From: Bradyrhizobium sp. CCBAU 53338
GTDB taxonomy: Bacteria > Pseudomonadota > Alphaproteobacteria > Rhizobiales > Xanthobacteraceae
Assembly (NCBI RefSeq): GCF_015291665.1
Contig: NZ_CP030048.1
Coordinates: forward strand, 992,001 to 1,056,000
Direction of reading: 5' to 3'
Length of the DNA: 64,000 nt
Shown here: positions 49,340 to 61,464 of the stretch, in pieces
How positions within the stretch are numbered: position 1 is the first letter of the stretch
How the letters are laid out: every line of letters begins with the position of its first letter
Program-made: the position numbers and the translations under genes
The notes under the pieces: generated by a model
The model's database searches: none
What the model was told of the DNA's origin: nothing
What the model saw: only the letters and a program-made list of their open reading frames with translations

Positions 49340-49355
49340 TGGCATGGTTCTTGCG
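49340..49355 (+). promoter_or_regulatory. Sigma-54 (RpoN) promoter of the urt operon
   Basis: TGGCATGGTTCTTGCG matches the consensus TGGCAC-N5-TTGCA, with GG (49341-49342) and GC (49353-49354) spaced by exactly 10 bases. Transcription would start near 49366, 65 bases ahead of urtA. Nitrogen control by NtrC is expected for urea uptake. Confidence 0.8.
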
Positions 49356-49430: not shown

Positions 49431-50753
49431 ATGCCTACCAAATCCATTCACGATATAGCGGCGTCATTTAGCCGCCGCGGCGTGCTCGCCGCGACCACTG
49501 GACTGATGCTCGGTCTGGCGTCCATTTCCGGCGCGAAGGCCGCGGACGACACCATCAAGGTTGGCGTCCTGCACTCCCTCTCCGGCACCATGGCCATCAG
49601 CGAAACCACGCTGAAGGACACCATCCTTTTCCTGATCGACGAGCAGAACAAGAAGGGCGGCTTGCTCGGCAAGAAGCTCGAGGCCGTCGTTGTCGACCCC
49701 GCTTCGAACTGGCCGCTGTTTGCCGAAAAGGCGCGCGAGCTGATTACCAAGGACAAGGTCTCGGTCGTGTTCGGCTGCTGGACCTCGGTGTCGCGCAAGT
49801 CGGTGCTCCCGGTGTTCAAGGAGCTCAACAACATCCTGTTCTACCCCGTGCAGTACGAGGGTGAAGAGTCCGAGCGCAACGTGTTCTACACCGGTGCTGC
49901 TCCGAACCAGCAGGCGATCCCCGCCGTCGACTACCTGATGAAGGAAGAAAAGGTGAAGCGCTGGGTGCTCGCGGGCACCGACTACGTCTATCCGCGCACC
50001 ACCAACAAGATCCTGGAAGCCTATCTGAAGTCGAAGGGTGTCGCCCAGGAAGACATCATGATCAACTATACGCCGTTCGGTCACTCCGACTGGCAGACGA
50101 TCGTGGCCGACATCAAGAAGTTCGGCTCGGCCGGCAAGAAGACGGCGGTGGTCTCGACCATCAACGGCGACGCCAACGTCCCCTTCTACAAGGAACTCGG
50201 CAACCAGGGCATCAAGGCGAAGGACATCCCGGTGGTCGCGTTCTCGGTGGGTGAAGAGGAGCTCGCCGGCATCGACACCAAGCCGCTGGTCGGCCATCTC
50301 GCCGCCTGGAACTACTTCGAGTCGATCAAGACCCCGGCGAACGAGAAGTTCATCAAGGACTGGCAGGCCTACACCAAGAACCCGAAGCGTACGACCAACG
50401 ACCCGATGGAAGCCCACGTGATCGGCTTCAACATGTGGGTGAAGGCGGTCGAGAAGGTGAAGTCGACCGATCCGGACAAGGTGATCGACGCGCTTCCCGG
50501 CATCGAGACGCCGAACCTGACCGGCGGCATCGCCAAGATGCTTCCGAACCACCACATCACCAAGCCGGTGTTCATCGGCGAGATCAAGGGCAACGGCCAG
50601 TTCGACGTGGTCTGGAAGACCCCGAGCCTCGTCCCCGGCGACGCATGGTCGAAGGAGCTCGACGGCTCCAAGGACCTGATCGGCGACTGGGTCGGCAAGA
50701 AGTGCGGCAACTTCAACACCAAGACCAACAAGTGCCTCGGCTCCGGCTCCTGA
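49431..50753 (+). CDS. urtA: Urea ABC transporter substrate-binding protein
   Basis: 440 residues. A Tat-type leader SRRGVLAATTGLMLGLASIS ends at AKA-A. Mature protein: DDTIKVGVLHSLSGTMAISE, GCWTSVSRKSVLPVFKELNN, FYPVQYEGEESERNVFYTGA, AVDYLMKEEKVKRWVLAGTD are the hallmark of UrtA in the Leu/Ile/Val-type binding proteins. It captures urea in the periplasm with high affinity. ATG 49431 is the start; GGGAG is 12 bases away. A strong hairpin separates it from urtB. Confidence 0.96.
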   Translation: MPTKSIHDIAASFSRRGVLAATTGLMLGLASISGAKAADDTIKVGVLHSLSGTMAISETTLKDTILFLIDEQNKKGGLLGKKLEAVVVDPASNWPLFAEKARELITKDKVSVVFGCWTSVSRKSVLPVFKELNNILFYPVQYEGEESERNVFYTGAAPNQQAIPAVDYLMKEEKVKRWVLAGTDYVYPRTTNKILEAYLKSKGVAQEDIMINYTPFGHSDWQTIVADIKKFGSAGKKTAVVSTINGDANVPFYKELGNQGIKAKDIPVVAFSVGEEELAGIDTKPLVGHLAAWNYFESIKTPANEKFIKDWQAYTKNPKRTTNDPMEAHVIGFNMWVKAVEKVKSTDPDKVIDALPGIETPNLTGGIAKMLPNHHITKPVFIGEIKGNGQFDVVWKTPSLVPGDAWSKELDGSKDLIGDWVGKKCGNFNTKTNKCLGSGS

Positions 50754-50780
50754 TCCGGATCTGACATTCGACTGCACGAC

Positions 50781-50812
50781 GGGAGAAGGCGGCTATTCCG
50801 CCGCCTTCTCCC
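50781..50812 (+). promoter_or_regulatory. 13-bp-stem hairpin between urtA and urtB
   Basis: GGGAGAAGGCGGC (50781-50793), loop TATTCC, GCCGCCTTCTCCC (50800-50812): perfectly paired, no T-run. It probably stabilises the urtA 3' end or reduces read-through, so more binding protein than permease is made. Confidence 0.75.
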
Positions 50813-50833
50813 CACTTCTGCCGGGGTGATCCA

Positions 50834-52444
50834 GTGCCAACCAAACTATCTGCTCGTCTCTCGACCCTTGTTCTTTCGCTGTTCCTGATCGCGTTCGCGC
50901 TGCCGGCCTTTGCCGGTCCGTTCGAGGATGCGGTCGCCAAATTCGCCAACGACGATTTTTCCGACACCGATGACGCGATCGGCGTAGTCGCAAGCAGCGG
51001 CAACAAGCTCGCCTTTCCGATCATCAGCGCGCTCCAGGACGGTCGTCTCATGGCCGATCCCGACAGCAAGAAGGTTTACGTCACGGGTACCGACGGCAAG
51101 TCGATCGACGCCGCGACCGGTGAGGCCGTTGCCAGCGTACCCGACAGCGCCAGCGCTGTTCGCCTCAATAATCGCCTGCGCCGCAGCGTCGATGCCGCGC
51201 TCGGCAGCCTGACGCTGCAGTCGCCCGATCTCGATACGCGGCTCCAGGCCGCTCAATCCGTCTTCAAGTCGCACGAAGAGACGGCGCTCGATCCCGTCGA
51301 GAGTGCACTTGCCAAGGAAACCAACAAAGCGGTCAAGACTGCGCTCGGCGAAGCGCGCGCGGCGATCCTGCTGTTCAAGTCCGACGCCACCGAAGTGCAG
51401 AAGCTCGAAGCGGTCGCCACCATCAGGGCGCGCGGCGATCAGGAAGCGCTGGCGCTGCTGGCCGACATCGGCTCCGACCAGCCGGCCTCCGTATCGAAGG
51501 CCGCGACGAGCGCGATCGGCTCGATCCAGAACTCGCTCGCGATCTGGTCGACGGTGCAGAATGCCTGGTACGGCCTGTCGCTCGGCTCGGTACTGCTGCT
51601 GGCGGCGATCGGGCTCGCCATCACCTTCGGCGTGATGGGCGTCATCAACATGGCCCATGGCGAGATGGTGATGATCGGGGCCTACACCACTTTTGTGGTG
51701 CAAGAGGTGATCCGCACCCGCTATCCCGCACTGTTCGACTATTCGCTGCTGATTGCCGTGCCGCTCGCCTTCCTCGTCGCCGGCGCCATTGGCGTGCTGA
51801 TCGAGCGCAGTATCATCCGCTTCCTCTATGGCCGGCCGCTGGAGACGCTGCTCGCGACCTGGGGCTTGTCGCTGGTGTTGCAGCAGGCGGTGCGCACCAT
51901 GTTCGGCCCGACCAACCGCGAGGTCGGCAACCCCTCCTGGATGAGCGGCGCGTTCGATCTCGGCCAGATCACCATCACCTACAACCGGCTCTGGATTCTC
52001 GTCTTCACGCTTGCGGTATTCGCGATCCTGCTCGCCATGCTGCGCTACACCGCGCTCGGCCTGGAGATGCGCGCGGTGACACAGAACCGCCGCATGGCGG
52101 CCTCGATGGGCATCGCCACCTCGCGTGTCGACGCGCTGACCTTCGGGCTCGGCTCGGGCATTGCCGGCATTGCCGGCGTGGCGCTGTCGCAGATCGATAA
52201 TGTCAGCCCCAATCTCGGCCAGAGCTACATCATCGACAGCTTCATGGTCGTGGTGTTCGGCGGGGTCGGCAATCTCTGGGGTACGCTGGTCGGCGCCTTC
52301 ACGCTCGGCATCGCCAACAAGTTCCTGGAGCCGGTCGCAGGCGCCGTGCTCGGCAAGATCGCGATTCTGGTCCTGATCATCCTGTTCATTCAAAAGCGGC
52401 CGCGCGGCCTGTTCGCGCTCAAGGGCCGCGCGGTGGAAGCATGA
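50834..52444 (+). CDS. urtB: Urea ABC transporter permease UrtB
   Basis: 536 residues, GTG start 50834. A signal-like N-terminus (SARLSTLVLSLFLIAFALPA) is followed by a periplasmic domain of about 190 residues (30-225) rich in helical repeats (LQDGRLMADPDSKKVYVTG, later VQKLEAVATIRARGDQEALA). The LivH-type permease starts near 235: AIGLAITFGVMGVINMAHGE, then GLEMRAVTQNRRMAASMGIA (EAA loop) and GNLWGTLVGAFTLGIANKFL. Long N-terminal domains are normal for UrtB. It ends overlapping urtC by 4 bases (ATGA). Confidence 0.95.
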   Translation: MPTKLSARLSTLVLSLFLIAFALPAFAGPFEDAVAKFANDDFSDTDDAIGVVASSGNKLAFPIISALQDGRLMADPDSKKVYVTGTDGKSIDAATGEAVASVPDSASAVRLNNRLRRSVDAALGSLTLQSPDLDTRLQAAQSVFKSHEETALDPVESALAKETNKAVKTALGEARAAILLFKSDATEVQKLEAVATIRARGDQEALALLADIGSDQPASVSKAATSAIGSIQNSLAIWSTVQNAWYGLSLGSVLLLAAIGLAITFGVMGVINMAHGEMVMIGAYTTFVVQEVIRTRYPALFDYSLLIAVPLAFLVAGAIGVLIERSIIRFLYGRPLETLLATWGLSLVLQQAVRTMFGPTNREVGNPSWMSGAFDLGQITITYNRLWILVFTLAVFAILLAMLRYTALGLEMRAVTQNRRMAASMGIATSRVDALTFGLGSGIAGIAGVALSQIDNVSPNLGQSYIIDSFMVVVFGGVGNLWGTLVGAFTLGIANKFLEPVAGAVLGKIAILVLIILFIQKRPRGLFALKGRAVEA

Positions 52445-53610
52445 CCCCTCACATGCTGACGCGATCGCTGGACCGCGGCGCGGCGATCTTCCTCGCCGTC
52501 GTCGCTGCCTGCGGCATCCTCATCCCGCTCTCCAACCTGCTGCTGCCGTCGGATTCGTTCCTGCAGGTGCCGACCTATCTGGTCGCGCTCTGGGGCAAGT
52601 ATGTCTGCTACGCGATCCTCGCACTCTCGATCGACCTGATCTGGGGTTATTGCGGCATCCTCTCGCTAGGCCACGGCGCCTTCTTCGCGCTCGGCGGCTA
52701 CGCCATGGGCATGTATCTGATGCGGCAGATCGGCGCCCGTGGCGTCTACGGCAATCCTGTCTTGCCCGACTTCATGGTGTTCCTGAATTACTCGAAGCTG
52801 CCCTGGACCTGGTACGGCTTCGACATGTTCTGGTTCGCCGCGCTGATGGTCTTGATCGTACCTGGCCTGCTCGCTTTCTGCTTCGGTTGGCTCGCCTTCC
52901 GCTCCCGCGTCACTGGCGTGTATCTGTCGATCATCACGCAGGCGATGACCTATGCGTTGCTGCTCGCCTTCTTCCGTAACGATTTCGGCTTCGGCGGCAA
53001 TAACGGACTGACCGACTTCAAGGACATCCTGGGCTTCAACGTTCAGGCCGAGGGCACGCGCGCGGCGCTGTTCGCGCTGAGCTGTCTGGCGCTGATCTTC
53101 AGCTTCCTGATCTGCCGCTCGGTCGTGTCCTCCAAGCTCGGCAAGGTGCTGATCGCGATCCGCGACGCGGAATCCCGCAGCCGCTTCCTCGGCTACCGCG
53201 TCGAGTCCTACAAGCTGTTCGTATTCACGCTGTCGGCCTGCATGGCGGGCGTCGCCGGCGCGCTCTATGTGCCGCAGGTCGGCATCATCAATCCATCCGA
53301 ATTCGCACCGGGCAATTCGATCGAGGCGGTGATCTGGGTCGCAGTCGGCGGGCGCGGCACGCTGATCGGCGCGGCGCTGGGCGCCATCGTGGTCAACTAC
53401 GCCAAGACCTTCTTCACCTCGGGCGTGCTGGCGCCGTACTGGCTGTTCATGCTGGGTGCGCTGTTCATCCTGGTGACGCTGCTGCTGCCGAAGGGCATTG
53501 TCGGCACTTTCAATGCCTGGCGCGATCAGTCGAAAGAGAAGCGCTCTGCGTCGGCCACTGCAAGTGCGGCGGCCGAAGACGCCATCACCGAACCCAAGAT
53601 GGCGGAGTAG
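52441..53610 (+). CDS. urtC: Urea ABC transporter permease UrtC
   Basis: 389 residues, LivM-type: YAILALSIDLIWGYCGILSL, GHGAFFALGGYAMGMYLM, FRSRVTGVYLSIITQAMTYA, AIRDAESRSRFLGYRVESYK (EAA loop) and EFAPGNSIEAVIWVAVGGRG. About ten helices; the C-terminal 30 residues are charged and Ala-rich. Partner of UrtB in the inner membrane. Start ATG 52441 overlaps the urtB stop. Five bases separate it from the urtD start. Confidence 0.95.
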   Translation: MTPHMLTRSLDRGAAIFLAVVAACGILIPLSNLLLPSDSFLQVPTYLVALWGKYVCYAILALSIDLIWGYCGILSLGHGAFFALGGYAMGMYLMRQIGARGVYGNPVLPDFMVFLNYSKLPWTWYGFDMFWFAALMVLIVPGLLAFCFGWLAFRSRVTGVYLSIITQAMTYALLLAFFRNDFGFGGNNGLTDFKDILGFNVQAEGTRAALFALSCLALIFSFLICRSVVSSKLGKVLIAIRDAESRSRFLGYRVESYKLFVFTLSACMAGVAGALYVPQVGIINPSEFAPGNSIEAVIWVAVGGRGTLIGAALGAIVVNYAKTFFTSGVLAPYWLFMLGALFILVTLLLPKGIVGTFNAWRDQSKEKRSASATASAAAEDAITEPKMAE

Positions 53611-53615
53611 CTGTC

Positions 53616-54377
53616 ATGAACGTCATGGATACCCGCGCGACATCCGCGATGCTCTATCTCGACGGCGTACACGTCTCGTTCGACGGCTTCCATGCCATCA
53701 ACAATCTGTCGCTGACGCTCGAGCCGGGCGAGATGCGGGCCATCATCGGCCCGAACGGCGCCGGCAAGACCACGATGATGGACATCATCACCGGCAAGAC
53801 CAAGCCTGACGAGGGGACGGTGCTGTTCGACGGCGTCACCGATTTGACGCGGCTGGACGAGACCCGCATCGCCGAGCTCGGCATCGGCCGCAAATTCCAG
53901 AAGCCGACCGTGTTCGAGAGCCAGACCGTGCAGGACAACCTGCTGCTGGCGCTCAATGTCGACCACAGCGTCAAGGGCACGCTGTTCTGGCGCGGCAGCA
54001 AGGCCGAGTCCGAGCGCATCGACAAGGTGCTGGAGACGATCCGTCTCACCGACGCCCGCAACCGCCTCGCCGGCAGCCTCAGCCACGGCCAGAAGCAGTG
54101 GCTCGAGATCGGCATGCTGTTGGCGCAGGATCCGAAACTGCTCCTCGTCGACGAGCCCGTTGCCGGCATGACCGACGTCGAGACGCATCTCACCGCCGAG
54201 CTGCTCAAGGAAATCAACAAGACCCACACCGTCATGGTGGTCGAGCACGACATGACGTTCGTGCGCGAGCTCGGGGTCAAGGTCACCTGCCTGCATGAAG
54301 GCACCGTGCTCGCCGAAGGAACCATCGACCAGGTCTCGTCGAACGAGCGGGTCATCGAAGTCTATCTGGGACGCTGA
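53616..54377 (+). CDS. urtD: Urea ABC transporter ATPase UrtD
   Basis: 253 residues, LivG-type ATPase. Walker A IIGPNGAGKTTMMD near 47, IGRKFQKPTVFESQTVQDNL (characteristic of UrtD), signature SLSHGQKQWLEI near 152 (SHGQ in place of SGGQ, normal in UrtD), Walker B LLLVDEPVAGMTDVE. C-terminal EGTVLAEGTIDQVSSNERVIEVYLGR is cut short as in the family. Energises urea import with UrtE. Confidence 0.96.
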   Translation: MNVMDTRATSAMLYLDGVHVSFDGFHAINNLSLTLEPGEMRAIIGPNGAGKTTMMDIITGKTKPDEGTVLFDGVTDLTRLDETRIAELGIGRKFQKPTVFESQTVQDNLLLALNVDHSVKGTLFWRGSKAESERIDKVLETIRLTDARNRLAGSLSHGQKQWLEIGMLLAQDPKLLLVDEPVAGMTDVETHLTAELLKEINKTHTVMVVEHDMTFVRELGVKVTCLHEGTVLAEGTIDQVSSNERVIEVYLGR

Positions 54378-54380
54378 GCG

Positions 54381-55076
54381 ATGCTTGAGGTCAAGGACAT
54401 CAACCTGTTCTACGGCGCGGCGCAGGCGCTCCGCGGCGTCTCGATCGCGGCCGAGCCGGGCAAAGTGACCTGCGTGCTCGGGCGCAACGGCGTCGGCAAG
54501 ACGTCGTTGCTGCGCGCCATGGTCGGGCAATATCCGATCTCCTCGGGCGCAATCGTGTTCGATGGCAGCGACATTACCGGCCTCAAGCCCTATGAGCGGG
54601 CGCGCAAAGGCATCGGCTTCGTGCCGCAGGGCCGTGAGATCTTTCCGCTGCTGACGGTCGAGGAAAATCTCAAGACCGGCTTCGGTCCGCTCAAGCGCCA
54701 GGACAAGAACATTCCGGACGACGTGTTCTCGCTGTTTCCGGTGCTGCAATCCATGCTCGGCCGGCGCGGCGGCGATCTCTCCGGCGGCCAGCAGCAGCAG
54801 CTCGCGATCGGGCGCGCGCTGGTGATGCGGCCGAAGCTGCTGCTGCTGGACGAGCCGACCGAAGGCATCCAGCCCTCGATCATCAAGGACATCGGCCGCG
54901 CCATCTCCTACTTGCGCAACCTCGGCAACATCGCCATCGTGCTGGTCGAACAATATCTCGACTTTGCCTGCGAACTCGGCGACAGTTTTGCGGTGATGGA
55001 TCGCGGTGCGGTGAAGTTCACCTGCGACCGCTCCAATCTCGACCCGGCCGAAATCAGCCGCCAGATGGCGCTGTAA
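54381..55076 (+). CDS. urtE: Urea ABC transporter ATPase UrtE
   Basis: 231 residues, LivF-type ATPase: NLFYGAAQALRGVSIAAEPG, Walker A LGRNGVGKTSLLRA near 37, GIGFVPQGREIFPLLTVEEN, signature DLSGGQQQQLAIGRAL near 133, and Walker B LLLLDEPTEGIQPSIIKDIG. Together with UrtD it forms the ATPase dimer. It begins 3 bases after the urtD stop. The urease accessory gene ureD follows after 35 bases, so transporter and enzyme share an operon. Confidence 0.96.
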   Translation: MLEVKDINLFYGAAQALRGVSIAAEPGKVTCVLGRNGVGKTSLLRAMVGQYPISSGAIVFDGSDITGLKPYERARKGIGFVPQGREIFPLLTVEENLKTGFGPLKRQDKNIPDDVFSLFPVLQSMLGRRGGDLSGGQQQQLAIGRALVMRPKLLLLDEPTEGIQPSIIKDIGRAISYLRNLGNIAIVLVEQYLDFACELGDSFAVMDRGAVKFTCDRSNLDPAEISRQMAL

Positions 55077-55111: not shown

Positions 55112-55942
55112 ATGCGCAGCGACGCTTTAGCGATATCTTCGGTGTTTGAAGCCAATCGTGCTCGAGGCGCGGTGCGCTTCGACGTGCACGCCCGTGACGG
55201 CGTGACGCGGCGGGGCGCCCTGCATGAATCCGGCTCGCTCCGTGTGCGCTTTCCCTCGCCGGAGGACGACGGCCTGTCGGGGGTGTTCGTGAACACGGCC
55301 GGAGGCGTTGCCGGCGGCGATCGGTTCGACATCGAGATCTCGGCCGCAGATAGCTCGCGTTTGACGCTGACGACGGCGGCCGCTGAAAAGATCTATCGCG
55401 CGCCGGGGGCGGTGGCGCAGCTCAACATTTCCTTGAAGGTTGGTGCCGACGCGCACCTCGGCTGGCTGCCCCAGGAGACGATCCTCTTCGACCGCGCACG
55501 GGTGCATCGCCGCTTCGACATCGAACTCGATAACGCCGCTTCGCTACTGCTTTGCGAGATTGTCGTATTCGGCCGCACCGCCATGGGCGAGCGCCTGGAA
55601 CAGGGCGAATTCGTCGACCGCTGGCGGCTGCGCCGTGGCGGCAAACTGATTTTTGCCGAGACCATCAGGCTCGACGGCCAGATCGGTGAAAAGCTGGCGC
55701 GGTCGGCGGTCGCCAAGGCAGGTGCTGCGATCGGTACGGCGCTGATGGTGCCCGGCGACGAGGCGCTGGTCGAACGCATTCGCGAAGCCTCGGGCTCTTT
55801 TGCCGGCGAGGTCGGAATATCCGCCTGGAATGGCTTTGCAATGGCGCGGTTCTGTGCCCAAGATGCGGCGCGTTTGCGTGCCGACATGATGGCCGTGCTG
55901 GCGTGCACGGGTGCGGCCTTGCCGCGGCTCTGGCTGAATTGA
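55112..55942 (+). CDS. ureD: Urease accessory protein UreD
   Basis: 276 residues. Family signatures: FPSPEDDGLSGVFVNTAGGV, GGDRFDIEISAADSSRLTLT, AAEKIYRAPGAVAQLNISLK, GADAHLGWLPQETILFDRAR. UreD binds apo-urease and with UreF and UreG forms the preactivation complex that carries nickel to the active site. The end DAARLRADMMAVLACTGAAL matches. ATG 55112, 35 bases after urtE. Its position ahead of ureA is the normal ureDABC order. Confidence 0.95.
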   Translation: MRSDALAISSVFEANRARGAVRFDVHARDGVTRRGALHESGSLRVRFPSPEDDGLSGVFVNTAGGVAGGDRFDIEISAADSSRLTLTTAAAEKIYRAPGAVAQLNISLKVGADAHLGWLPQETILFDRARVHRRFDIELDNAASLLLCEIVVFGRTAMGERLEQGEFVDRWRLRRGGKLIFAETIRLDGQIGEKLARSAVAKAGAAIGTALMVPGDEALVERIREASGSFAGEVGISAWNGFAMARFCAQDAARLRADMMAVLACTGAALPRLWLN

Positions 55943-55966: not shown

Positions 55967-56269
55967 ATGAACCTGTCTCCCCGCGAAAAGGACAAGCTTC
56001 TGATCTCGATGGCGGCGATTGTGGCGCGTCGCAGACTGGATCGCGGCGTCAAGCTCAACCATCCCGAGGCGATCGCGATCATCTCCGATTTCATCCTCGA
56101 AGGCGCGCGCGACGGCCGCACGGTCGCCGAGCTGATGCAATCGGGCGCACAGGTGCTCACCCGCGACCAGGTGATGCCCGGCATCCCCGAGATGATCCAC
56201 GACATCCAGGTCGAGGCGACGTTCCCTGACGGCACCAAGCTCGTCACCGTGCACGAACCGATCAGGTAG
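55967..56269 (+). CDS. ureA: Urease gamma subunit
   Basis: 100 residues, standard size. [80 protein letters not shown] are near-universal gamma-subunit sequences. Part of the (alpha-beta-gamma)3 urease enzyme. Separated from ureB by 11 bases. Confidence 0.98.
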
Positions 56270-56280
56270 GAGCGAGAAGC

Positions 56281-56586
56281 ATGATCCCCGGCGAACTCTT
56301 CATCCAGGACGGCGAGATCGAGCTCAATGCCGGCCGCAAGACTGTGACGCTCACGGTCGCCAACACCGGCGACCGACCGATACAGGTCGGCTCGCACTAC
56401 CATTTCTTCGAGACCAATCCGGCGCTGAAGTTCGACCGCAAGAAAGCCCGCGGCATGCGCCTCGACATCGCCGCCGGCACCGCCGTCCGCTTCGAGCCCG
56501 GCCAGACCCGCAACGTCCAGCTCGTCGCGCTCGCGGGGAAGAAGACGATCTACGGCTTCCGCGGTGACGTGATGGGGAAGCTGTGA
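56281..56586 (+). CDS. ureB: Urease beta subunit
   Basis: 101 residues, normal length. [60 protein letters not shown] and [20 protein letters not shown] fit the beta-subunit immunoglobulin-like fold. Second subunit of the urease trimer unit. It is followed after 3 bases by an HD-domain hydrolase gene, not directly by ureC, which is the unusual feature of this operon. Confidence 0.98.
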
Positions 56587-56589
56587 TTC

Positions 56590-57129
56590 ATGCTTCCCGC
56601 CGTTCGCCTCATTTCGGAAGCTGCTGAGCTGGCCGCGCGCCGGCACAATGGCATGGCGCGCAAGGGGCGGGGGAACGAGCCTTACATCAACCATCTCGCC
56701 GAGGTCGCGAACCTGGTGGCAACGGCGACTGACGGCGCTGATGCCGAGCTCGTTGCGGCTGGCTGGCTGCACGATGTGATCGAGGATACCGACACCACGC
56801 GCGACGAGCTGGCGCAGGTATTCTCCGACCGGGTTGCCTCCCTCGTCGTCGAATGCACCGACGACATGAGTCTGTCGAAGGCCGAGCGGCGGCGCCTGCA
56901 GGTCGTCGAGGCGCCGAAGAAATCGGCCAGCGCAAAGCTGATCAAGATCGCCGACAAGGTCAGCAATATCGGCGCGCGTATTCATTCCGATCCGACTGCG
57001 GACGAGCGCGACGATCTCGCCGATTATGCCGGCTGGGCCGAGCAGGTCGTCGCCGGCTGCCGTGGCGGTAACGCCTGGCTCGACGCGAGATTCGACGACA
57101 TGGTGCGAAAAGCGAGGGCCTCGCTGTGA
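56590..57129 (+). CDS. MESH1-like HD-domain hydrolase (probable (p)ppGpp or related nucleotide 3'-pyrophosphohydrolase)
   Basis: 179 residues, the same length as animal MESH1 (HDDC3). The metal and substrate residues sit at the MESH1 numbers: R24/K25 in ARKGRGNEPYINH, H35 (YINH), H61-D62 with E65-D66 in WLHDVIEDTD, and D122/N126 in KIADKVSN. ERRRLQVVEAPKKSASAKLI is close to the MESH1 linker. Such enzymes hydrolyse ppGpp (and MESH1 also NADPH) without a synthetase domain. It lies between ureB and ureC with 3 and about 37 bases, so it is co-expressed with urease. A role in the stringent or nitrogen response is inferred. Confidence 0.9.
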   Translation: MLPAVRLISEAAELAARRHNGMARKGRGNEPYINHLAEVANLVATATDGADAELVAAGWLHDVIEDTDTTRDELAQVFSDRVASLVVECTDDMSLSKAERRRLQVVEAPKKSASAKLIKIADKVSNIGARIHSDPTADERDDLADYAGWAEQVVAGCRGGNAWLDARFDDMVRKARASL

Positions 57130-57166: not shown

Positions 57167-58882
<1,716 letters not shown>

Positions 58883-59022
58883 AATAGCGCCTCGACGCAT
58901 GTCCCCGGCGCATGCCGATTGCATGTCCTGGGGCGGCTTTTCCGGTTTTGCGTTCGATCCCGGCTGGTCTAATGTCCCGGCCGGTATCTAACCCTTCAGA
59001 AGAAAAGCCGGGAGGATTTCTC

Positions 59023-59322
59023 GTGATCTACGTCGTTGCCACCTTGACCATCAAGCCCGAAACCCGCGCCGAATTCATTGCAGCCGCCACCGCCTGCATC
59101 AGGGAGACGCGGAAGGAGCCCGGCAATATCGCCTACGATCTGCACGAAAGCGTCACCGACCCCACCAAGATGGTGTTCGTCGAGCAGTGGGAAAATGCCG
59201 AGGCGCTCGTGCCGCATCGCGGCCAGGAGCACATGAAGACGTTCGGCCGTGTCGCGGTGAAGTGCTTCACCGCGCCCCCGAAGATCGAAGTCATCACGCC
59301 CGAGAAGGTCGAGACGAGGTAA
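59023..59322 (+). CDS. Antibiotic-biosynthesis-monooxygenase (ABM) domain protein
   Basis: 99 residues from GTG 59023, which has GGGAGGA 7 bases before it. Dimeric alpha-beta barrel: VIYVVATLTIKPETRAEFIA, CIRETRKEPGNIAYDLHESV, MVFVEQWENAEALVPHRGQE and HMKTFGRVAVKCF. Similar to YgiN-like quinol monooxygenases. Its activity is not proven by sequence; it may act on quinones. Placed between ureC and ureE, 6 bases from ureE, it is an insertion into the accessory set. No role in urease maturation is known to me. Confidence 0.88.
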   Translation: MIYVVATLTIKPETRAEFIAAATACIRETRKEPGNIAYDLHESVTDPTKMVFVEQWENAEALVPHRGQEHMKTFGRVAVKCFTAPPKIEVITPEKVETR

Positions 59323-59328
59323 CAGCGC

Positions 59329-59976
59329 ATGATCCGGGCGACGCAGGTTAAGGGACAGCACCGCTTCACGGAAACGCCGGCGGATACGGTCGTGCTCGAT
59401 TTCGACGATCGGCACCGTCGCCGCATGGCGATGACGGGAACGCGGGGCCTCGAATTCCTGCTCGACCTGGAGAACGCGGTGGCACTGCGCGGCGGCGATG
59501 CGCTCTTGCTGGAGGACGGCCGTCTGGTCGAAGTGGTCGCGGCACCCGAGCCGCTGCTCGAGATCCGCGGCCGCGACCCGCACCATCTGATCCGCGTCGC
59601 CTGGCATCTCGGCAATCGCCATCTGCCGACGCAGCTCATGGCCAAGAGCCTGCGCATCCGCCGCGACCACGTCATCGAGGCGATGGTGCAGGGACTTGGC
59701 GCGAAGGTGATCGAGATCGAAGCGCCGTTCGATCCCGAAGGCGGTGCCTATGCCGATGCCGGCCATGCGCACGGACACGATGACCATGCACGTCACGAGC
59801 ATGGTCATCATGGTCACGGCCACCATGATCATGGCCATCATCAACATGATCATCACGGCCTTGACCATCAGCACGATCATGCCGCGCATGATCATGATCA
59901 TCACCACCACCACGACGAACACTGCGACCATCCCGACCATCACCACGGCCACAAACATGCTCATGACCACAAATGA
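59329..59976 (+). CDS. ureE: Urease accessory nickel chaperone UreE with long His-rich tail
   Basis: 215 residues. UreE N-domain: [20 protein letters not shown]; metal-binding C-domain: [20 protein letters not shown] and [20 protein letters not shown] with the conserved His. From about residue 144 to the end (about 70 residues) roughly half of all residues are His, interspersed with Asp/Gly, as in nickel-storing UreE of Klebsiella and rhizobia. It delivers or stores nickel for UreG. The repeated CAT/CAC/GAT codons are prone to slippage. It overlaps ureF by 14 bases. Confidence 0.96.
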
Positions 59977-60840: not shown

Positions 60841-61464
60841 ATGGCAACTTCTCACGGCCCTTTGCGTGTCGGCGTCGGCGGCCCCGTTGGATCGGGCAAG
60901 ACTGCGTTGATGGACCTGCTCTGCAAGACCATGCGCGAGCGTTACGACATCGCCGCGATCACCAACGACATCTACACCAAATGGGATGCGGAATTCCTTG
61001 TGCGCTCCGGCTCGCTGACGCCGGACCGCATCGCCGGCGTCGAGACCGGCGGCTGCCCGCACACTGCGATCCGCGAGGACGCCTCGATGAATCTCGCTGC
61101 GGTGGCGGACATGCGCGCCAAATTCCCCGGGCTCGATCTCGTGCTGATCGAGTCCGGCGGCGACAATCTCGCCGCCACTTTTTCCCCGGAGCTGGCCGAT
61201 TTGACCATCTATGTCATCGACGTTGCCGCCGGCGACAAGATCCCGTCCAAGGGCGGCCCCGGCATCACCCGCTCGGACCTTCTGGTCATCAACAAGATCG
61301 ATCTCGCGCCCCATGTCGGTGCGTCCCTCGAGAAGATGGATACCGACGCCAAGCGCATGCGCGGCGAGCGTCCCTTCGTCATGACCAATTTGAAGAAGAG
61401 CGAAGGCCTCGACCGCATCGTCGGCTTCATCGAGACCAAAGGTGGGCTGAAACGAGCGGGCTGA
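60841..61464 (+). CDS. ureG: Urease accessory GTPase UreG
   Basis: 207 residues. SIMIBI GTPase: P-loop [13 protein letters not shown] (G14-T21), the metal-binding CPH motif in [34 protein letters not shown], and the guanine-specific [12 protein letters not shown]. It uses GTP to hand nickel to the UreDF-urease complex. ATG 60841. Last gene of the urt-ure operon; about 265 bases of apparent non-coding DNA follow before the histidine kinase. Confidence 0.97.

Follow-up and report, generated by a model that had tools for sequence, protein, structure and literature searches.

The urease operon of Bradyrhizobium sp. CCBAU 53338 contains, between the genes for the beta and alpha subunits of urease, a gene whose product (P0001) resembles the animal alarmone hydrolase MESH1, and relatives of this gene occupy urease operons in other genomes as well. 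The best explanation for the sequence comparisons described below is that one subfamily of small alarmone hydrolases (SAHs) belongs to the urease operon in part of the Hyphomicrobiales. As for its function, we regard the case as evenly balanced for an alarmone hydrolase that would be co-produced with urease and would lower (p)ppApp, perhaps also (p)ppGpp, during life on urea nitrogen.

Gene, product and operon context

The gene was found in a 64,000-nt stretch of contig NZ_CP030048.1 (hereafter the window, i.e. the whole stretch of DNA analysed), where the listing of open reading frames (ORFs) gives a plus-strand frame at 56590-57129 with an ATG start, 179 codons and a stop. The gene and its surroundings are as follows:

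49431..55076, plus strand: urtABCDE, urea ABC transporter directly upstream of the ure genes (ORFs; urtB-E adjoin ureD in family relatives with urease clusters)
55112..55942, plus strand: ureD accessory gene (Pfam UreD, E=2e-54)
55967..56269, plus strand: ureA, urease gamma subunit (ORF, synteny)
56281..56586, plus strand: ureB, urease beta subunit (ORF, sequence, tblastn synteny in relatives)
56590..57129, plus strand: P0001, predicted Mesh1-type SAH, 179 aa (ORF, residues, Pfam HD_4, MESH1 structures, dN/dS)
57167..58882, plus strand: ureC, urease alpha subunit, 572 aa (ORF; relatives in 124 of 149 family genomes)
58912..59322, plus strand: ABM-domain protein, encoded additionally between ureC and ureE (Pfam ABM at 58987-59319, E=1.6e-21)
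59329..59976, plus strand: ureE with a His-rich tail (Pfam UreE_N and UreE_C)
60841..61464, plus strand: ureG, GTPase of urease maturation (ORF; tblastn matches at the equivalent place in the ure clusters of relatives)

The names ureA, ureB, ureC, ureF, ureG and urt are those we take these genes to have by homology, for urt without a family search, and the resulting plus-strand order is urtABCDE, ureD, ureA, ureB, the hydrolase gene, ureC, the ABM gene, ureE, ureF and ureG. The original prediction had placed the hydrolase between ureB and ureC, and the gaps bear this out: the ureB stop codon occupies 56584-56586, 3 nt before the hydrolase start, and ureC begins at GTG 57164 or ATG 57167, i.e. 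34-37 nt downstream of the hydrolase. Since all intergenic gaps from urtE to ureC are at most 37 nt, and no terminator-like site was found on the plus strand from ureD to ureC in the window, the hydrolase is likely to be co-transcribed with the neighbouring ure genes.

The description of P0001 as a MESH1-like protein of 179 residues with seven key positions also stands, on the evidence of its reading frame, domain, closest structures and residues. Pfam HD_4 matches it with E=4.6e-16 (59.4 bits against a cut-off of 27.2), and its best solved relative is human MESH1 (3nr1, 178 aa; E=3.4e-32, 115 bits with phmmer), followed by Drosophila Mesh1 (3nqw, 179 aa; E=4.6e-31), with Lmo0812 as the best structure that is not a Mesh1 (E=1.4e-14, 58 bits). 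All seven residues (H35, H61, D62, E65, D66, D122 and N126) are found at exactly the predicted numbers. R24, K25 and Y146 are present too, the residues that form the lining of the base pocket in human MESH1 (PMC12934728). P0001 stands alone, with Pfam matches to HD families only and without synthetase, TGS or ACT domains over its 179 aa. There is a strong case for assigning its activity class as that of a Mesh1-type SAH, an assignment that rests on similarity to metazoan Mesh1.

The genome encodes three HD_4 proteins: P0001, a second one that is 42% identical to it (189-aa frame, elsewhere in the genome), and a Rel (765-aa frame) whose hydrolase motif looks intact by eye. RelA_SpoT domains occur twice, ~0.5 and 2.5 Mb from the P0001 gene. 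A 450-aa protein with a RelA_SpoT synthetase domain, encoded at 1060-2412 of L168 (same genome, near C1:1554274), matches the PADLOC model PDC-S33 (E=3.3e-11). The SAH antitoxins of toxic small alarmone synthetases are, like P0001, stand-alone enzymes, and they hydrolyse (p)ppApp or (p)ppGpp; unlike P0001, they have the synthetase gene adjacent. With no synthetase beside it and no PADLOC match for P0001, we reject a toxSAS-antitoxin function in toxin immunity.

Urease-linked relatives, selection and phylogeny

Named contigs were represented by the best 80 of 198, hence by the closest relatives; 79 of them carry the label Bradyrhizobium and one is labelled Frankia. Among these best 80, the hydrolase lies upstream of ureC on the same strand in every case, and ureB is found at most ~1.2 kb upstream of the hydrolase in 78. 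The other two are L006, which begins at a contig end, and L057, a locus that shows no ureD, ureA or ureB. Including the window, the gap from hydrolase to ureC (extrapolated to a GTG start) is no longer than 34 nt in 79 of 81 loci, and ~555 nt in L004 and L070. The seven catalytic residues are intact in 79 of the 80 named-contig loci, the exception being L074 (E65 lost). They are likewise intact in two more sets of urease-linked relatives, in all 12 of one and all 4 of the other.

The hydrolase gene is under purifying selection, with dN/dS of ~0.15. Specifically, its median over 250 random pairs out of 79 loci is 0.153, a value on which we reject a decaying gene; for comparison, the same pairs and loci numbers give medians of 0.112 for ureD, 0.062 for ureB, 0.040 for ureC and 0.025 for ureA.

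The space between ureB and the hydrolase is an apparent insertion hot spot in Bradyrhizobium, where many strains carry an insert and others none. For example, patatin-like inserts (~370 aa) are present in L013, L015, L017, L021 and L048 (Pfam-confirmed in L013), and DUF559-type inserts (~150-180 aa) in L001, L003, L005 and others (Pfam-confirmed in L001). The contig of L004, labelled Frankia sp. RB7, has a Bradyrhizobium-type urease operon (UreC 99%) and is probably mislabelled or contaminated.

At the family level, a hydrolase match (E<=1e-12) was obtained in 35 of 149 genomes and ureC in 124 of 149. We examined the loci of 30 of the 37 matches; of the other seven, one is a second G116 match (8.5e-38) and the rest are weaker. 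Half of the 30 loci are in urease clusters (seven Bradyrhizobium including the window, G016, five Rhodopseudomonas-type genomes, G009 and G099), 14 have no urease gene within ~1.5 kb, and in the remaining one, G080, the hydrolase adjoins ureE only. G080 is a Rhodopseudomonas-type genome; a search of all of it gave no ureC match, and the 16 kb around the hydrolase contain none of ureA, B, D, F and G. At its locus L149 (8106-9336) the hydrolase is directly followed by ureE, apparently as the remnant of a urease operon.

The position of the hydrolase varies within this set. G009 and G099 have it between ureA and ureB. At all six Rhodopseudomonas-type and G016 loci, a GTG start of ureC overlaps the hydrolase stop by 4 nt. 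Two Rhodopseudomonas-type genomes, G112 and G125, have a urease cluster from which the hydrolase is absent. The G099 locus (L098, 620-1601) also has two other ORFs, one before ureC and one, small, His-rich and membrane-like, before ureB.

The order survey yielded a hydrolase match (E<=1e-25) in 34 of 297 genomes, and of the 30 loci examined (the four weakest were left out) 11 are urease-linked, i.e. nine from Bradyrhizobium together with G251 and G410. Taking both surveys together, 9 of the 11 sampled Bradyrhizobium genomes have the hydrolase, always in the urease operon, and G109 and G122 of this genus have a urease operon with ureC and without the hydrolase. The urease-linked copy of G410 (L127, 1468-2052) has probably lost its hydrolase activity, because D66 is replaced by K and N126 by G.

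Across the phylum, the hydrolase was matched in 25 of 397 genomes, and the 14 loci lying outside the order (L135-L148) are all without urease genes within ~1.5 kb, on which we reject a phylum-wide habit. No shared neighbour of the unlinked SAHs was obvious at eight loci, as judged from ORF starts only.

A search with L115 gave proteins of Methylobacterium and Methylorubrum extorquens. Of 111 genomes of Methylobacterium, the genus of G251, 21 have the hydrolase (E<=1e-20) and 108 have ureC; all 21 hydrolase-bearing genomes have ureC, and 87 of the 108 ureC-bearing ones have no hydrolase match at the same threshold. The hydrolase follows ureB in the urease operon in 20 of the 21. At each of these 20 linked loci, an in-frame ATG or GTG of the hydrolase overlaps the ureB stop by 4 nt and the seven catalytic residues are intact. 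The ureC start is located between 4 nt before and 5 nt after the hydrolase stop at 15 of them, and 0.5-1.2 kb past the hydrolase at the other five. The sole unlinked SAH of the 21 (L207, from G862) has no adjoining urease genes in its 2.3-kb stretch.

The arrangement is thus present in many Bradyrhizobium, Rhodopseudomonas-type and Methylobacterium genomes, on which we reject an oddity of this strain alone; in the survey of ure operons that the original prediction had proposed, the gene was found there in 80 of 80 named contigs (best 80 of 198) and in 20 of the 21 Methylobacterium genomes that have it.

We built two trees of these proteins, leaving L144 (internal stop) out of both. The first comprised 73 rows, only two of the linked ones being from outside the Xanthobacteraceae. 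The Bradyrhizobium, Rhodopseudomonas-type and G016 copies were joined in it (97/81, with L096), the placement of L097, L098 and L115 was not settled, and the AU test did not reject placing all linked rows and L096 in a single clade (p 0.138, or 0.396 when L127 is left out). As this left the question open, a second tree of 61 rows was made, with 22 near-copies or long-branch rows taken out and 10 rows added (eight Methylobacterium copies, L207 and the M. extorquens protein P0222). Here, every urease-linked row falls in one clade of 29 with support of 99/95. Of its members, 26 were read as urease-linked, P0222 is presumed to be so, and two are unlinked, namely L096 (G080, adjoining ureE) and L131, which has a long branch and an altered D66. 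L207 and, except for L131 and L096, the unlinked Mesh1-type SAHs of the tree lie outside. Judged from this tree, the urease-linked SAHs, the M. extorquens SAH included, form one supported clade apart from the unlinked ones, with those two exceptions.

These distributions also bear on whether the hydrolase is simply cargo, i.e. a functional enzyme lodged at an insertion-tolerant site of the urease operon and kept for the housekeeping of alarmones or nucleotides in general, unconnected with urea in particular. Other genes do occupy the same gap in many Bradyrhizobium (DUF559-type, patatin), and the ABM gene follows ureC; yet one clade is tied to urease operons over two GTDB families, with the unlinked SAHs outside it save L131 and L096. 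Similarly, G009 and G099 place the gene between ureA and ureB, but it stays inside the operon even as its position there shifts, and the overlap with ureB is kept at 20 of 20 Methylobacterium loci. The frequent absence of the hydrolase from urease-bearing genomes fits cargo, as does G080, where retention of the gene without ureC suggests that its use may not need urease. On balance, we find the cargo explanation rather unlikely.

Characterised relatives and likely substrate

P0001 is 59% identical to P0222, the SAH of M. extorquens (186 aa), over 175 residues, and scores 194 BLASTP bits with it versus 115 phmmer bits with human MESH1, the two values being from different programs. The closest sampled relatives of P0222, L187 (96%) and L188 (92%), are both in urease operons. 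The only SAH of M. extorquens is a homologue of eukaryotic Mesh (PMC6491832), and the characterised enzyme, SAHMex of Methylorubrum (Methylobacterium) extorquens AM1, is MexAM1_META1p3226 (PMC7644958). We strongly infer that P0222 is the counterpart of AM1 SAHMex and that the AM1 gene lies in a urease operon.

According to PMC7644958, SAHMex has a kcat/Km of 1.05 x 10^4 per s per M for ppApp and 2.47 x 10^4 per s per M for pppApp, shows negligible activity on (p)ppGpp, and does not hydrolyse NADPH at 18 nM or 0.2 uM. The original prediction had named ppGpp or NADPH as the substrate; because SAHMex hydrolyses (p)ppApp, hardly (p)ppGpp and shows no NADPH activity, neither is, by analogy, the best-supported one. 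P0222 falls in the same clade as P0001 and has a similar size. According to our own mapping of PMC7644958, which is a weak one that assumes numbering shifts and takes 'D80Q' as the residue after ED-T, the residues listed for (p)ppApp-using enzymes correspond to N34, A57 and K123 in P0001, and these are kept across the urease-linked sets except for N34 in L127. The same weak mapping sets the candidates for (p)ppGpp loss in SAHMex (L, Q and T) against I64, D68 and V124 in P0001, A37 being common to both. Lacking three of the four suggested residues, P0001 could have activity on ppGpp, its base preference may be broader than that of SAHMex, and it may act on both bases; to this extent the ppGpp half of the earlier claim survives.

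Metazoan MESH1 (human 3nr1/5vxa, Drosophila 3nqw) is like P0001 in its single HD domain, its length of 178-180 aa, its catalytic residues and its R24, K25 and Y146. Both (p)ppGpp and (p)ppApp are substrates of the metazoan enzymes, and human MESH1 additionally accepts NADPH and CoA (PMC7644958 and PMC13221220). XccSAH of Xanthomonas campestris is, like P0001, a stand-alone bacterial SAH without a partner synthetase; by its authors' account it belongs to the sister group Mesh1-L, and it is promiscuous, with action on (pp)pGpp, pppApp and NADPH (PMC9765508). The words 'urea' and 'operon' are absent from the main text of that paper.

A cofactor could also be the substrate, in which case P0001 would be a 2'- or 3'-phosphatase that acts on NADPH or coenzyme A and so tunes metabolism to the arrival of nitrogen from urea. 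MESH1 acts on both compounds (PMC13221220), XccSAH acts weakly on NADPH (PMC9765508) and R24, K25 and Y146 are kept in P0001, but SAHMex lacked NADPH hydrolysis at both concentrations assayed (PMC7644958) and CoA activity is unreported for any bacterial SAH in the literature examined. We consider a cofactor substrate very unlikely.

The (p)ppApp-directed reading thus draws on published enzymology of an evident ortholog (PMC7644958), and the statement that no function had been described holds for the urease context only. 'Urea' and 'operon' are absent from the main text of PMC7644958, and the literature searched for MESH1 or alarmone hydrolase with urease, or for ppGpp with the urease operon, does not report this context, with subscription papers mostly outside the search.

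Probable nitrogen control and possible roles

The supply of the hydrolase had been predicted to follow urea use. In Bradyrhizobium and Rhodopseudomonas it is better described as probably following nitrogen shortage, given the following site before urtA:

49340..49354, plus strand: sigma-54-type -24/-12 site TGGCATGGTTCTTGC, 91 nt upstream of the urtA ATG

A -24/-12 core of this kind is the sigma-54 pattern, which is often nitrogen-regulated. The core of TGGCATGGTTCTTGC recurs 78-91 nt before the urtA start (partly extrapolated) in 15 of 15 relatives examined, two of which (G109 and G122) are without the hydrolase. The pattern with at most two mismatches has 19 sites in the window, fewer than expected by chance (mean 29); the case for the one before urtA is therefore made by position and conservation, not by enrichment. 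The conserved site suggests that the urease cluster of Bradyrhizobium and Rhodopseudomonas would be expressed under nitrogen shortage. None of ten Methylobacterium stretches (ureD unmatched in two) has a sigma-54-type site just upstream of ureD, and a single weaker one was found in L214, ~1.5 kb from ureD; on these stretches we do not extend sigma-54 control to the clade as a whole.

For the role we propose, that of an alarmone hydrolase co-produced with urease, we infer each component, i.e. the physiological role, the substrate in Bradyrhizobium, the co-expression, the drop in alarmone and the benefit. P0001, presumably metal-dependent, would take the 3'-pyrophosphate off alarm nucleotides, with (p)ppApp as the most likely substrate and (p)ppGpp as a further candidate; in characterised relatives this activity depends on Mn2+ (PMC7644958). 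The enzyme would be made together with the urease subunits, probably through translational coupling to ureB. In Bradyrhizobium and Rhodopseudomonas, nitrogen shortage would act through sigma-54 and the cluster would probably be switched on, at the time when, as in Caulobacter, the long Rel/SpoT lets the alarmone rise. In that bacterium, nitrogen (glutamine) starvation raises (p)ppGpp, and phosphorylated EIIANtr inhibits the SpoT hydrolase (PMC4848567). Under such shortage, P0001 could counter the (p)ppGpp rise if active on (p)ppGpp, or clear (p)ppApp, and it could lower the alarmone again once the cell commits to urea as its nitrogen source. Being short and without a regulatory domain, the enzyme could bring the alarmone back down. 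Counting against a role tied to urease is the patchy distribution of the gene (missing from 87 of 108 ureC-bearing Methylobacterium, and from G109, G122, G112 and G125), and counting against a guanosine-alarmone role is that the closest characterised relative hardly acts on (p)ppGpp, the alarmone that rises in nitrogen shortage.

Guanosine alarmones are central to one further explanation, in which the hydrolase would clear them from the GTP site of UreG, where nickel insertion would otherwise stop when nitrogen is short. The ureG gene is in the same cluster, and HypB is the hydrogenase counterpart of UreG. Such a protective role is thinkable since HypB has similar affinities for ppGpp (Kd 12.4 uM) and GTP (Kd 9.0 uM; PMC5845004). 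The weakness of (p)ppGpp hydrolysis by the evident ortholog SAHMex argues against it, as does the lack of any such hydrolase gene in most ureC-bearing family and Methylobacterium genomes, and we consider protection of UreG improbable.

Returning to an enzyme co-produced with urease, it could be that the operon carries its own (p)ppApp-directed eraser, i.e. a dedicated circuit in which the use of urea nitrogen resets the adenosine alarmone made by the long Rel. We hold this to be unlikely. If true, (p)ppApp hydrolysis would gain a physiological setting outside toxin immunity, and the existence of a (p)ppApp-specific hydrolase in M. extorquens would be explained.

SAHMex has been assayed in the test tube, and the placement of its subfamily largely in urease operons suggests a setting for it, namely nitrogen shortage with urea as the sole nitrogen source. 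The finding bears on what housekeeping (p)ppApp does in bacteria and on what their orphan Mesh1-type hydrolases are for. An alarmone hydrolase in the urease operon of Bradyrhizobium and several related bacteria is a candidate link between urea feeding and alarm signalling, and may tie the use of urea by plant-associated bacteria to growth control.
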